This document shows positions 3,813 to 44,974 of a stretch of 64,000 bases of DNA, one piece after another. The DNA is from a virus. Each line of letters opens with the position of its first letter. Within the stretch, counting starts at the first letter, position 1. Under the pieces are notes generated by a model, which saw only the letters and a list, made by a program, of their open reading frames with translations, was not told the origin of the DNA and made no database searches. The translations under genes were made by a program, and so were the position numbers. Location: the IMG/VR virus record IMGVR_UViG_3300028920_000060, positions 1 through 64,000 of that record. One strand, 5' to 3'.

Positions 3813-5222
3813 TTAAATCACCGTAATGTTGGTGGTTTCTACTCTAGCAAATTCATTCTTTGCTATCGTAATGTCAGCATTTCCAGTACTACCAAGCCTA
3901 TCAAATAAAGAAAATACAAAGTTATCAACACCAGTAATAGTTCTAACTACTAATTGTATATCACTACGTTCAACATCTTCACCAAGATTCAGTACATTCA
4001 CAAAAGATTCGATCGCACTAATCACCGCAGTTCTAATTGTATTGAATGAAAAACCACTCAATATTGTTAATGTTGCTGACATCTCAACATCTACTTGAAC
4101 ACCAGAACGTATTAATATATCTTGGCCACCAACTATGTTATCGGCATCAGAATCGAATACATTCTGTATATTTTCAACTAATATGTTTTGTTCATAATCA
4201 ACTGTTAAAGTATCACCAGGACTAGGTAACGTCGTAGCAGTCGCGAGAAATTGTATCCCATCCTGAGCTCGGACACTTTCAGAAACACCTGTGGTATCTT
4301 TAACTAAAATATAGTCTGTATTTAAGACATATCCGGATACATTAGTAATATTTAAGACTGGTTGATTTTCCAATACAATTGTCTGACCAATACCAACGAA
4401 TTCAGGAGTAGATTGTCTAGTAGTAGTTTGAGAACCAGTAATAAACACATCAACCGCATTACCAGTCTCACCACTTCTAGTAATTAGAGGATCTCCAGGA
4501 GTAATAACTAATATATCACCAGCATCAGCAAAATTACTCTCAATAAATAATTTCAAACCATTTTTGGTTGCTAATTGTGTTCCAATAATGGCAAGTTTAT
4601 ATCTTTCAATGAGTTCATCATTAGTTTCGATATCTACAACATTAGAAGTTCTATTTCTATTAAATACAGAATCAAAACCTACTAAAGGTCTAAGTGGTCG
4701 TGTTACACGATTAGGACCAACCTCACCAATTTTACCAGCAACTGTCGCCTGTATTGCTACTTCAAGTTCATACCTTTCGGTTTCTAAATTGAAAAATGAA
4801 GCTGCAGTAGCTGCAGGCATAGTCTTTGCTTCTGTAGTAATAAATACTACAGTTTCACCAGTAGATTGATCAGGTTGGGTAGCTACCGGGTATCCTCTCT
4901 GAACTGTAATATCAACCGTAGGAGCAAGTGATCGAGAAAATATTAACGTACCACTAGACCTACCACCAAGATTTCTAGTCTGATTTTCATTAAAAACAAA
5001 ATTATTCACATCTTCATCAGTAAATACAGCAGACTGATCTAATAAAATAAGCTGTGATACTAATCTTATGCGATCATTTTGTAGCTCTAATACCTGTGCA
5101 ACAGGTTGAGTTACAATATCCGCTACAGGTCCAATTTCTACATCATGGGCGTTATTCCTTGAAGTAATACCATCTTCTAACTGAGAAGTAAATTGGTCTG
5201 CAGTAATTTTGTTTACAGGCAT
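3813..5222 (-). CDS. Baseplate J-like protein (wedge)
   Basis: At 469 residues it has the organisation of the baseplate J family (T4 gp6 / P2 gpJ type). There is an N-terminal helical part with DIVTQPVAQVLELQNDRI, a central beta part with conserved GYPVATQPDQSTGETVVFIT and the GKIGEVGPNRV turn, and a C-terminal part starting near residue 380. In that last part, AVISAIESFVNVLNLGEDVERSDI followed by ITGVDNFVFS is the usual end of the family. It forms the ring of wedges around the hub that opens on contraction. It sits directly after the gp25-like gene, the standard order. Family call is firm. Confidence 0.88.
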   Translation of the reverse strand: MPVNKITADQFTSQLEDGITSRNNAHDVEIGPVADIVTQPVAQVLELQNDRIRLVSQLILLDQSAVFTDEDVNNFVFNENQTRNLGGRSSGTLIFSRSLAPTVDITVQRGYPVATQPDQSTGETVVFITTEAKTMPAATAASFFNLETERYELEVAIQATVAGKIGEVGPNRVTRPLRPLVGFDSVFNRNRTSNVVDIETNDELIERYKLAIIGTQLATKNGLKLFIESNFADAGDILVITPGDPLITRSGETGNAVDVFITGSQTTTRQSTPEFVGIGQTIVLENQPVLNITNVSGYVLNTDYILVKDTTGVSESVRAQDGIQFLATATTLPSPGDTLTVDYEQNILVENIQNVFDSDADNIVGGQDILIRSGVQVDVEMSATLTILSGFSFNTIRTAVISAIESFVNVLNLGEDVERSDIQLVVRTITGVDNFVFSLFDRLGSTGNADITIAKNEFARVETTNITVI

Positions 5223-41993: not shown

Positions 41994-42935
41994 TCAGACC
42001 TGTGCTACAGAATCATCCTCATCATCCAACTCATGAGAGGCTAAATCTGCTGCCTGTTTTTGAGCCCACTTCTTTACAGACTTGTAGTAGGAATGAGCTC
42101 GAATGTGCTCGTAGTCATCTAAGGTTAAATTGGGAATGTCCTGCAGTGATTCTAAGAGTTCAGCAGCGGGCATTCTTTCAGATTCTTCAATCTCAGCCTT
42201 GACCTGATTACAGAAATGTAGCACCCGAGGATTAATAACTTCATCCTCACCAACAACATCATTATGTGCTACACGATTACGCTCACCAAAACGAGCAGCA
42301 CCACCAGGACCGGTCCCCTTTTCTACTACTTCGTGAATCGGCTCTGGAGAGGAAGCTGCAACAGGCTCTCTATAGTTTCTATCAGAAGTACGTCGACGCT
42401 TTTCTTCAGATGCATCAATAGCAGCATCAACGTCTGGTTCACCGTCGTTATTAAGCATATTGCTGCGCTTTGCTTTACCAGCAAAGTAAGCTTTATACTC
42501 TTCTTCAGTCAAAAGTTGGAGAGCCGGTGGACGCCGGCTAAGCATCTTTCTAAAATCCATAGATGCTTTAATAGCGTCAAAAGGAATAAATTGTGTAAGA
42601 TTAACTGGATCTCTGTTGTTAGCAAACAGAAAACCTTCATTCCGATTTGGAGCTATCGGAAATTCGCACGAAACTTGTGCGTTTGCGAGATTCTGAACAT
42701 AAATATCTCGCTCTTCCTTGAAGAATTCAGTGAAGTTTCTAGGTACTGGCATAACTTTTCTTCTCCTGATTGAGGTAGCAGATACTGTTTTGAAGAGCAT
42801 AATAGCAAAAGGTCGCCTCGAGTAAATTTTGGCTTTCTTCTCTCTCAGCAGCCTTCTTGCTCTCCCAGGATGTATATACTCCAAAAATCTCTTTTCGGAA
42901 TCTACTACTAATACATCCTGAGTATGCTTGCTCAT
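41994..42935 (-). CDS. Head-region protein fused to an N-terminal RRXRR/PLMP-like peptide (313 aa)
   Basis: Residues 7-48 (DVLVVDSEKRFLEYIHPGRA then RRLLREKKAKIYSRRPFAIML) match the RRXRR domain, the N-terminal PLMP part of IscB/IsrB (Cas9-ancestor) nucleases. No RuvC or HNH motif follows. From residue 62 the sequence becomes a charged protein (MPVPRNFTEFFKEERDIYVQ, DPVNLTQFIPFDAIKASMDF, RRPPALQLLTEEEYKAYF) with an acidic C-terminus. The ATG at 42752 (residue 62) has AGGAG ten bases ahead and could be an independent start. Upstream, an 18-residue open frame in the same phase ends MVLEQN-M; joined to residue 62 it reads as a natural N-terminus. I infer that the native gene is split by an inserted 246-base element. 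Confidence 0.75.
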   Translation of the reverse strand: MSKHTQDVLVVDSEKRFLEYIHPGRARRLLREKKAKIYSRRPFAIMLFKTVSATSIRRRKVMPVPRNFTEFFKEERDIYVQNLANAQVSCEFPIAPNRNEGFLFANNRDPVNLTQFIPFDAIKASMDFRKMLSRRPPALQLLTEEEYKAYFAGKAKRSNMLNNDGEPDVDAAIDASEEKRRRTSDRNYREPVAASSPEPIHEVVEKGTGPGGAARFGERNRVAHNDVVGEDEVINPRVLHFCNQVKAEIEESERMPAAELLESLQDIPNLTLDDYEHIRAHSYYKSVKKWAQKQAADLASHELDDEDDSVAQV

Positions 42936-42998
42936 GCACAGAGCAGCCCCTCAATCCGTTTGTGCTCTTGCCAAGAGCACGGGAATTTAACCCACCAT
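42753..42998 (-). mobile_element. Candidate 246-base RRXRR/IscB-derived element inserted in a gene
   Basis: The segment lies between two ATG trinucleotides (42998-42996 and 42752-42750), is exactly 82 codons long, and carries two in-frame stops (42987, 42951 region), a perfect 8-bp hairpin and the RRXRR-coding stretch. Removing it would join an upstream 15-codon frame to the head-region gene in phase. IscB-family ORFs are normally preceded by a structured omega (HEARO) RNA, and the leader here is also structured. The element identity and its boundaries are inference. Confidence 0.4.
42962..42980 (-). ncRNA. Perfect hairpin in the leader of the RRXRR gene (omega-RNA-like candidate)
   Basis: GTGCTCTT and AAGAGCAC pair exactly around a three-base loop. 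It is followed on the coding strand by ACAAACGGATTGAGGGG and the RRXRR start codon. Two more stems lie upstream (TTCTAACA/TGTTAGAA at about 43003-43021 and GCTC/GAGC at about 43038-43050). IscB/HEARO RNAs occupy this position; the match to a specific family is unproved. Confidence 0.4.
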
Positions 42999-43043
42999 GT
43001 TCTGTTCTAACACCATGTTAGAAGGAACAGTGTATTTGCTCAT
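42987..43043 (-). CDS. 18-codon open frame, probable 5' fragment of the split head-region gene
   Basis: ATG at 43043 with a strong GGGAGAGG site six bases ahead. It encodes MSKYTVPSNMVLEQNMVG and then TAA. It is in phase with the long gene downstream (291 bases, 97 codons, to the ATG at 42752). The good ribosome site and the fit of its end (VLEQNM) to the downstream MPVPRNFTEF suggest it is the original N-terminus. It could instead be a leader peptide. Confidence 0.5.
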   Translation of the reverse strand: MSKYTVPSNMVLEQNMVG

Positions 43044-43068
43044 AACGAGCCTCTCCCTAAGGAGGTAA

Positions 43069-43106
43069 ATTCTAGTGGGTGGATGGTGGATTCCACCCAC
43101 TAGAAT
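43069..43106 (-). terminator. 14-bp perfect stem-loop after the small head protein gene
   Basis: 43069-43082 and 43093-43106 are exact reverse complements (ATTCTAGTGGGTGG) with a ten-base loop, starting six bases after the stop of the gene at 43112. On the coding strand only a short TTT follows, so a terminator or a transcript-stabilising structure are both possible. Confidence 0.6.
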
Positions 43107-43111
43107 AACAA

Positions 43112-43693
43112 CTACGAAGCCTTCAGAATCTTAATCCGAAGAGCAGAATCGACGATAGGGGTCGGACTACCACCAGCAGTATAGACTAACGCGATCGAAA
43201 TCTTGTCACCCTTAACTACAGTAGCTCCACCTTCATCGCCATAAAGAGTCTGACGCGCAGCAGTAACCGTGGTATCATCAGCAACCAGAGCCGAAGCCAG
43301 GATGGATGAACCATTTACCAGAACGTCAAACGTCATGTCCTCACCGGAAGCGGGAAGAGCACCAACCTGAGCTTCGACAGAAATGGTGCCTGCCATATCA
43401 GCAGTACCAATCATAATCTCAGCCTGATTTGCAGCAGTTTCCTGCACAAACTCCATCAACTGGGAATCGAGCAAAGACTCAATATCGCCAGCTTCCGCCA
43501 CGGTGGAGATGGTGATCGTACCAGCAGCTACCAGCGTACGAATTGAACCAACTCTGTTCAGATCGTCAATCGTTACCCGATCCCCGACATCGACATAGCC
43601 ACTACCTGGCACAGTCTCTCTGATGGTTTCTTCACCAACAGTAAAGTCAAGGGAAATAGGATCTGTCGTAGTATTGGTAATCAATACTTGCAT
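43112..43693 (-). CDS. Small head protein, decoration/head-fibre candidate (193 aa)
   Basis: Follows the major capsid gene, is GC-richer than the genome average like it, and is bracketed by stem-loops. Residues 1-75 are a beta domain (LITNTTTDPISLDFTVGEET, GSGYVDVGDRVTIDDLNRVG, IRTLVAAGTITI), a short helix follows (ESLLDSQLMEFVQETAANQA), and residues 90-193 form a second beta domain (FDVLVNGSSILASALVADDT, VKGDKISIALVYTAGG). Two-domain beta proteins at this place are often capsid decoration or head fibre proteins. Abundant expression is suggested by codon use and the isolated transcription layout; the role is inference. Confidence 0.65.
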   Translation of the reverse strand: MQVLITNTTTDPISLDFTVGEETIRETVPGSGYVDVGDRVTIDDLNRVGSIRTLVAAGTITISTVAEAGDIESLLDSQLMEFVQETAANQAEIMIGTADMAGTISVEAQVGALPASGEDMTFDVLVNGSSILASALVADDTTVTAARQTLYGDEGGATVVKGDKISIALVYTAGGSPTPIVDSALRIKILKAS

Positions 43694-43765: not shown

Positions 43766-44974
43766 TTACTTCCGGCCCTTGGCTGCCGCTCTCGGGTTCG
43801 GGATACCGAAGCCGATGATCTCGCCAAACGCCCAACCCTTGACCAGACGACGATGGCTGAACATGTTGAAAGGCTCACTGAAGAGCTCAACACGAACACC
43901 CATCTCGCCGAGGTACTCACTGCCGGTGACGGCGTAGAAGGTACCCGCAGGCACGACTTCTTCAACACCGGTACCAGCTGCAGTGATGATCTGAGCATTG
44001 AGGATGTTGCCGATGTAACCGGCGAGGATTAACTCGCGCTCGGTCACCGGGTCAACAGCCGCACTCATCGTCTTCACAACGTCCGAAAGCTCAGCACGGT
44101 TGATGAAGTACTTCTCAACCATGAGGCGGTGACGCTCAACCTGATAGCGAACATCTTCAAACGCAGCAATACCGAGCGTAGTGAAGATGGTCTCGGAGTT
44201 TACGGTGACGGCAGCACGATCAAGCAGTGCCAGGCCGCGCTTATCCTCTTCGAGCTCAATCTCCTGCCGCGCAGTGTCCTGAGCACGATCGAGAACATCG
44301 TAATTCATCTGATAGATGTCTTCGATGTCCACGGTCGGGAAAGCGGTAACCTTGAACTCGGAAGGCTGAATGAATCGACCATGAAGTCGAGACTCAATGG
44401 ACTGACCATCCTGACCAACCACCCAAGCGGTAGCACGAACATCCTTCGCAATGCGGAAGAGTTCGCCCTGAGCTAACGGACGGACACGATAGAGCTTGCG
44501 AGCCCAGCCCTCGTAATCCACGATGTCCTTGATCGGAAGCAGAAGCTCCTGACCAACAATCGCGAAACCTTCACCAGTTGGATCAGTCATCGCCGCAGCG
44601 AGAACCTTACGCCGATCTTCGGCGTCCATTTGGTTAGAAGCTTCACGATAAAAAGTGCCCGGAGACGCTTTACGCGTAACGCTCTGAAGCAGGTATGCTA
44701 CCTGCTGAAGGGCATCTTTATCATCGTAGGCATTAACTTCACCAGACTTATCGAACATGCGGTTCGACAAATTGGTGTTACCAACAGCCTGACGAACGCC
44801 ATCACGAGTAACCTCACCAGCATACGCGGTGGGGTTAAACTTGCCAGTCTCATCAAAATGCTGCTCATCTTGCACACTGGCATGACGTTGGATGGTTGGG
44901 GTCTCTACACCCTTTGGCGGAGGCGTCGCCGCCCCAGCCGCAGCGAGGCGCTTATAAGGATTTACTACGCTCAT
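43766..44974 (-). CDS. Major capsid protein
   Basis: 402 residues; AGGAGAAAAAG before the ATG is a strong ribosome site. It follows the protease-scaffold and decoration-like genes and lies close to portal and terminase, as capsid genes do. The first 60-70 residues (Pro/Ala/Thr-rich, then HFDETGKFNPTAYAGEVTRDG) look like a flexible N-arm. The body has the mixed helix/strand pattern of HK97-fold capsids (FYREASNQMDAEDRRKVLAA; IAKDVRATAWVVGQDGQSIE; VTAFPTVDIEDIYQMNYDVL; a late VRVELFSEPFNMF). GC content and codon choice stand out from the surrounding AT-rich genes, consistent with very high expression. No motif is diagnostic alone; context makes the call strong. Confidence 0.87.
   Translation of the reverse strand: MSVVNPYKRLAAAGAATPPPKGVETPTIQRHASVQDEQHFDETGKFNPTAYAGEVTRDGVRQAVGNTNLSNRMFDKSGEVNAYDDKDALQQVAYLLQSVTRKASPGTFYREASNQMDAEDRRKVLAAAMTDPTGEGFAIVGQELLLPIKDIVDYEGWARKLYRVRPLAQGELFRIAKDVRATAWVVGQDGQSIESRLHGRFIQPSEFKVTAFPTVDIEDIYQMNYDVLDRAQDTARQEIELEEDKRGLALLDRAAVTVNSETIFTTLGIAAFEDVRYQVERHRLMVEKYFINRAELSDVVKTMSAAVDPVTERELILAGYIGNILNAQIITAAGTGVEEVVPAGTFYAVTGSEYLGEMGVRVELFSEPFNMFSHRRLVKGWAFGEIIGFGIPNPRAAAKGRK

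Follow-up and report, generated by a model that had tools for sequence, protein, structure and literature searches.

The gene for a 313-amino-acid (aa) protein of a large uncultured phage begins with a PLMP (RRXRR) domain of the type that starts the IscB/IsrB nucleases, fused in frame to an unrelated C-terminal domain, and a covarying structured RNA lies directly upstream of the PLMP start codon. The gene is located on the minus strand of the window, by which we mean the whole analysed stretch of 64,000 nucleotides (nt; positions 1 to 64,000 of the IMG/VR virus record IMGVR_UViG_3300028920_000060). The explanation we favour, with roughly even confidence, is that this unit is a nuclease-free, domesticated remnant of an OMEGA (IscB/IsrB) system whose PLMP domain would bind its own leader, which bears the Shine–Dalgarno (SD) sequence, and would tune translation. 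In the literature on RRXRR, PLMP or HEARO we found no report of a phage PLMP fusion of this kind; the conserved, nuclease-free use of an OMEGA part is new.

The Pfam RRXRR profile (PF14239) matches residues 8–56 of the open reading frame (ORF) with an E-value of 2.3e-8 and 34.6 bits at a cut-off of 25, the match spanning only profile positions 1–49 of 174. It confirms an RRXRR match that a sequence-only reading of the same DNA, made earlier from the letters alone, had placed in this ORF. AlphaFold predicts a β-β-α-β-β fold for the domain, with a predicted local distance difference test (pLDDT) value of about 90. The nine best PDB matches of this model in Foldseek are all IscB/IsrB–omegaRNA complexes, and IF3-N is among the next ones; an IF3-N likeness of the IsrB PLMP domain has been reported (PMC9581776). 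The window domain can also be aligned with that of TbaIscB. Beyond residue 56 no Pfam or PHROG match to a nuclease (RuvC, HNH) was found in the window protein. Judging from its sequence, the PLMP unit has no nuclease and is probably domesticated. When the window is compared with L001, a relative 90% identical to it, the ratio of non-synonymous to synonymous rates (dN/dS) in the PLMP codons equals 0.07, which indicates purifying selection. The synonymous rate is 0.56 in PLMP versus 1.14 in the remainder of the gene, so that silent change is halved, hinting at a constraint on the nucleic acid as well.

Relatives were gathered with three queries: the C-terminal part by itself, the major head protein and the whole fusion. 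About 40 virus records (approximately 33 non-identical) were found, and a PLMP-like domain is fused in frame wherever the N-terminus can be read; among such N-termini there is no form without PLMP. The PLMP-fused relatives extend to an identity of roughly 30% and include Virus Rctr197k (31%); L050 and L035 are very divergent at the N-terminal end. In 16 of 19 virus records PF14239 hits this gene alone and never an IscB. L043 and L044 each give two tandem hits; these two and L045 carry a pair of tandem PLMP-like domains ahead of the same C-terminal domain. Close PLMP copies in other genes were not found except in a true IscB (L120), and scans of genome contigs gave no cellular copy. The fusion gene lies about 50 kb away from the major head gene in L008, yet retains both PLMP and the leader, and in the record of L022 it lies several kb away and retains PLMP. 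Because the domain persists without linkage to the head gene, we assign both it and the leader to the fusion gene. On this sequence evidence the fusion is an old, conserved fixture of a family of large uncultured phages and not a recent insertion.

The C-terminal domain also occurs alone. PHROG 17686 matches 16 of 20 family members (best E-value 1.6e-8) and the match is confined to this domain; the window protein itself has no match at E ≤ 0.1. The best viral fold matches of the model are proteins of 203–246 aa from Motura, PaBG and others (probability 1.00). The jumbo-phage proteins of PHROG 17686 (PaBG gp154, Motura gp042) have a homologous C-terminal domain but lack PLMP, the Motura counterpart being 225 aa long. 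Because these distant relatives lack the domain, it was probably gained, before the diversification of the present phage group, and a PLMP-less ancestor of the host protein is likely. The sequence-only reading had a minimal nuclease-less element enter the gene. Its picture of a nuclease-less RRXRR/PLMP domain behind a structured RNA, reading into the host gene as a fusion, is borne out, and so is an entry, in that the domain was apparently acquired once. The entry was not recent, however, since all of the approximately 40 relatives are fused where readable, and the shorter N-terminus expected among homologues exists only far off, in Motura and PaBG.

The leader consists of hairpins almost throughout, with no free 5' guide evident (Table 1). 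Eight leaders were aligned by MAFFT, without fitting to structure, and pairs were picked by eye on that alignment. They share a 37-pair structure with 96.9% of cells paired, an excess partly due to the choice of pairs by eye; the compensatory changes, observed at 30 of the 37 pairs, are not explained by that choice. None of 500 shuffles approaches this structure and sliding destroys the fit. In L001, for example, a 6-bp stem GTGCTC/GAGCAC is swapped for GCATCC/GGATGC. The fold of the window leader has a z-score of −5.2 relative to shuffles. Covariance model R1, built on the final ~125 nt of the leader, finds the L020 leader independently (24 bits, E-value 6e-4). The GAGG before the PLMP start tends to be paired, with a pairing probability of 1.0 in the window, and is present in 9 of 10 AT-rich leaders (expected 3.1). 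A role of H1 as the terminator of the major head gene is rejected: the hairpin persists in L008 away from that gene, and no terminator is listed there.

Table 1. Features of the fusion gene, its leader and the head gene upstream (window coordinates).
Feature	Position	Strand	Basis
Structured leader RNA, whole element, about 170 nt	42936..43107	−	covariation on 8 sequences; z −5.2; model R1
Hairpin H1 with 14 pairs; CCACC in its conserved loop	43070..43105	−	compensatory changes at 14/14 pairs; also in L008
Hairpin H2; 3' arm forms what looks like the leader ORF's ribosome site	43053..43064	−	
Hairpin H4; 3' arm ends at the A of ATG 42998	42998..43029	−	6/8 pairs compensatory
Hairpins H5 (GGG/CCC, invariant) and H6 (7 pairs, covarying), then AAAC	42962..42993	−	
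GAGG, SD-like, before the PLMP start; part of a small GAG/CTC hairpin	42941..42952	−	sequence
Fusion ORF, 313 aa: PLMP/RRXRR, linker, C-terminal domain of unknown function	41994..42935	−	
PLMP (RRXRR) domain, residues 1–56	42767..42935	−	Pfam PF14239; AlphaFold and Foldseek; alignment with TbaIscB
Predicted internal start: SD AGGAGAAG and ATG 42752	42750..42767	−	SD energies in relatives; linker position in model
C-terminal domain	41997..42752	−	matches of relatives to PHROG 17686 and to jumbo-phage proteins without PLMP
Major head protein, upstream neighbour of the fusion gene	43766..44974	−	phrog_2522, E-value 5e-56

Two further contacts within the leader can be drawn. The H2 region (43058–43066, minus strand) contains ACCTCCTTA, identical to the 16S rRNA anti-Shine–Dalgarno sequence, and the minimum-energy fold pairs the ACCTCCTTA region with GAGGGG before the PLMP start. 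This pairing is not kept in all relatives; as modelled, it is a possible switch. The invariant CCACC of the H1 loop (43085–43089) is complementary to the invariant GGTGG before H5 (42992–42996, minus strand); there is no variation at these positions, and a kissing interaction between them is possible.

The sequence-only reading took the short leader frame for the first part of an apparently split gene. Its observations hold: the minus strand has an 18-codon frame from ATG 43043 to TAA 42987 (MSKYTVPSNMVLEQNMVG*) behind AGGGAGAG, ATG 42998 and the in-phase ATG 42752 are 246 bases, or 82 codons, apart, and between them lie two in-phase stops (MVG*IPVLLARAQTD*GAALC, asterisks marking stops) and several stem-loops. 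If a minimal IscB-type element had inserted recently and were taken out by splicing, excision or translational bypassing, so that MVLEQN is joined to MPVPRN, this would account for the phase of the ATGs, for the structured RNA and for PLMP-less relatives at a great distance; we nevertheless consider it very improbable. None of seven close relatives conserves the leader frame: L001 has the start out of frame and a TAA in frame ahead of MVLEQNMVG, and no counterpart exists in the other six. The 18-codon ORF is a chance frame, and with the A of ATG 42998 a hairpin arm ends, not an exon. Splicing is rejected for the lack of an intron match, for this non-conservation and for the lack of a PLMP-free form among the ~40 relatives, and bypassing of the T4 gene 60 type, for its need of a conserved upstream frame ending at a take-off codon. 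Removal at either the RNA or the DNA level also disagrees with purifying selection on the PLMP codons. The covariance search of this region against HEARO/omegaRNA and intron models, proposed as a check by that reading, gave no match. No group I/II intron core was detected in the window; a similar search did detect a group I intron in the relative L049 (IMGVR 3300042731_001429, positions 4345–4602, 75.6 bits), inside the major head protein gene region. Rfam scans of the window and relatives showed no riboswitch in the window.

ATG 42752 remains of interest as an internal start, which would give a short form of 252 aa (MPVPRNFTEFF...). At this junction the SD energy is −5.5 kcal/mol or lower in 18 of 21 relatives, versus 17% of control ATGs (p=3e-9), and the ATG falls in the linker (residues 58–63) that AlphaFold leaves low-confidence or disordered. 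The PLMP start codon is ATG in the clade of the window and GTG or TTG in many relatives. Given the strong SD at the junction in most relatives, both long, PLMP-fused and short isoforms are likely made.

The favoured explanation draws on known complexes. In IsrB, PLMP contacts the 3' terminal omegaRNA hairpin, which carries the isrB SD, and its authors propose a role of this contact in IsrB expression (PMC9581776); in OgeuIscB, PLMP recognises terminal hairpins (PMC9640706). The phage gene shares the N-terminal PLMP with the IscB/IsrB nucleases (PF14239) by sequence and predicted fold, and its leader, like omegaRNA (HEARO, RF02033), is structured, is located directly upstream of the PLMP start and has GAGG near the 3' end. 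The phage fusion differs in lacking RuvC, the bridge helix, HNH and TI, in having another C-terminal domain, a leader with no HEARO match and no evident guide, and an internal start after PLMP. In the proposed scheme PLMP and the SD-bearing structured leader would have been retained from an OMEGA unit and fused in frame ahead of a phage gene. The upstream start behind the leader would yield the long protein and ATG 42752 the short one. PLMP of the long form would then bind the leader around its own SD, in the manner of IsrB PLMP on the terminal hairpin of omegaRNA, and thereby control translation and the ratio of long to short isoforms. RNA binding and feedback control by PLMP are what we infer by analogy with IsrB. 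Descent from an IscB-like element has good support in the case of the protein; in that of the RNA it is no more than a suggestion. Somewhat less probable, in our judgement, is that the minimal PLMP and leader form a self-standing RNA–protein module, split from the OMEGA nuclease or predating it, which large phages would use as a self-binding translational switch for making two isoforms of one protein.

Several observations weigh against the OMEGA-remnant explanation. At the four-residue PLMP motif the window protein has FLEY, and most family members are FLEY-like. A 38-row tree speaks for the explanation, as the phage PLMPs form one group that a branch separates from all IscB PLMPs (support 96/98), but it was built on only 66 columns. 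Rfam gave no HEARO match for the window leader, either at gathering or at E ≤ 10, while 10 of 10 plasmid IscB loci do match HEARO (54–154 bits). Model R1 does not match leaders of IscB loci, of the GC-rich clade or of the third clade; the other clades have different structured leaders directly 5' of the PLMP start, so that leaders of three kinds occur in three clades with strong covariation for one only, and RNA homology across clades is unproven. In favour of the explanation, CGAGGC occurs just before the PLMP start in 7 of 10 GC-rich leaders (expected 0.3) and resembles the HEARO 3' end gCGAgGcgaAc, but both GAGG and CGAGGC may simply be SD sequences.

The missing HEARO match and the three leader types would also suit a plain domain fusion, in which PLMP mediates protein–protein contacts or has some other task and the leader, without any connection to PLMP, regulates the gene in cis as an attenuator or thermosensor. 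We rate this as unlikely, as a structured leader abuts the PLMP start in each clade and it is exactly the SD-bearing 3' hairpin that IsrB PLMP contacts (PMC9581776). Another alternative is a stable ribonucleoprotein formed in trans by PLMP and the leader, whole or processed, which would act in particle assembly or be carried in the virion and would not control translation. In its favour, the leader is a large, conserved and highly structured element of about 170 nt, the fused gene is usually beside head genes, and PLMP in IscB/IsrB is part of a stable ribonucleoprotein (PMC9640706). Nonetheless this appears improbable to us: the structure abuts the start codon, as expected of a cis-element, and a head role is unproven, with the gene about 50 kb from the major head gene in L008 and the PaBG and Motura relatives not beside theirs.

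In autogenous translational operators of phages and ribosomal proteins, the protein binds a structured leader over its own ribosome-binding site. The logic proposed for the OMEGA-remnant explanation is the same, with a binding domain from an RNA-guided nuclease fused to an unrelated gene product. TldR binds DNA under the guidance of an RNA. The TnpB-derived TldR proteins are RNA-guided phage transcription factors (PMC13418256) and likewise former OMEGA proteins that phages have domesticated as regulators; unlike in TldR, only the RNA-binding N-terminal domain is left here and the proposed target is its own mRNA. Known domesticated OMEGA proteins are RNA-guided regulators, and here just PLMP and the structured RNA at its start are kept. 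If the explanation is correct, the PLMP self-regulation via an SD hairpin suggested for IsrB (PMC9581776) could be tested outside a nuclease, and the RNA-binding head of a Cas9 ancestor persists as a gene-control module. The pair would also offer a natural minimal RNA–PLMP complex for structure work, and the annotation of the whole phage gene family is affected, as its true products may be two isoforms.

On the minus strand of the window the major head gene is followed by a small gene (43112–43693) and then by the leader and the 313-aa ORF. That the fusion gene encodes a head protein is no more than a positional guess, because in PaBG and Motura the PLMP-less genes do not adjoin the major head gene. 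The PaBG copy (NC_022096.1, 112347–113018) has a Holliday junction resolvase and a primase in its vicinity, and for this reason the C-terminal domain may have no place in the virion. The small gene has weak head-type matches and is absent from L001.
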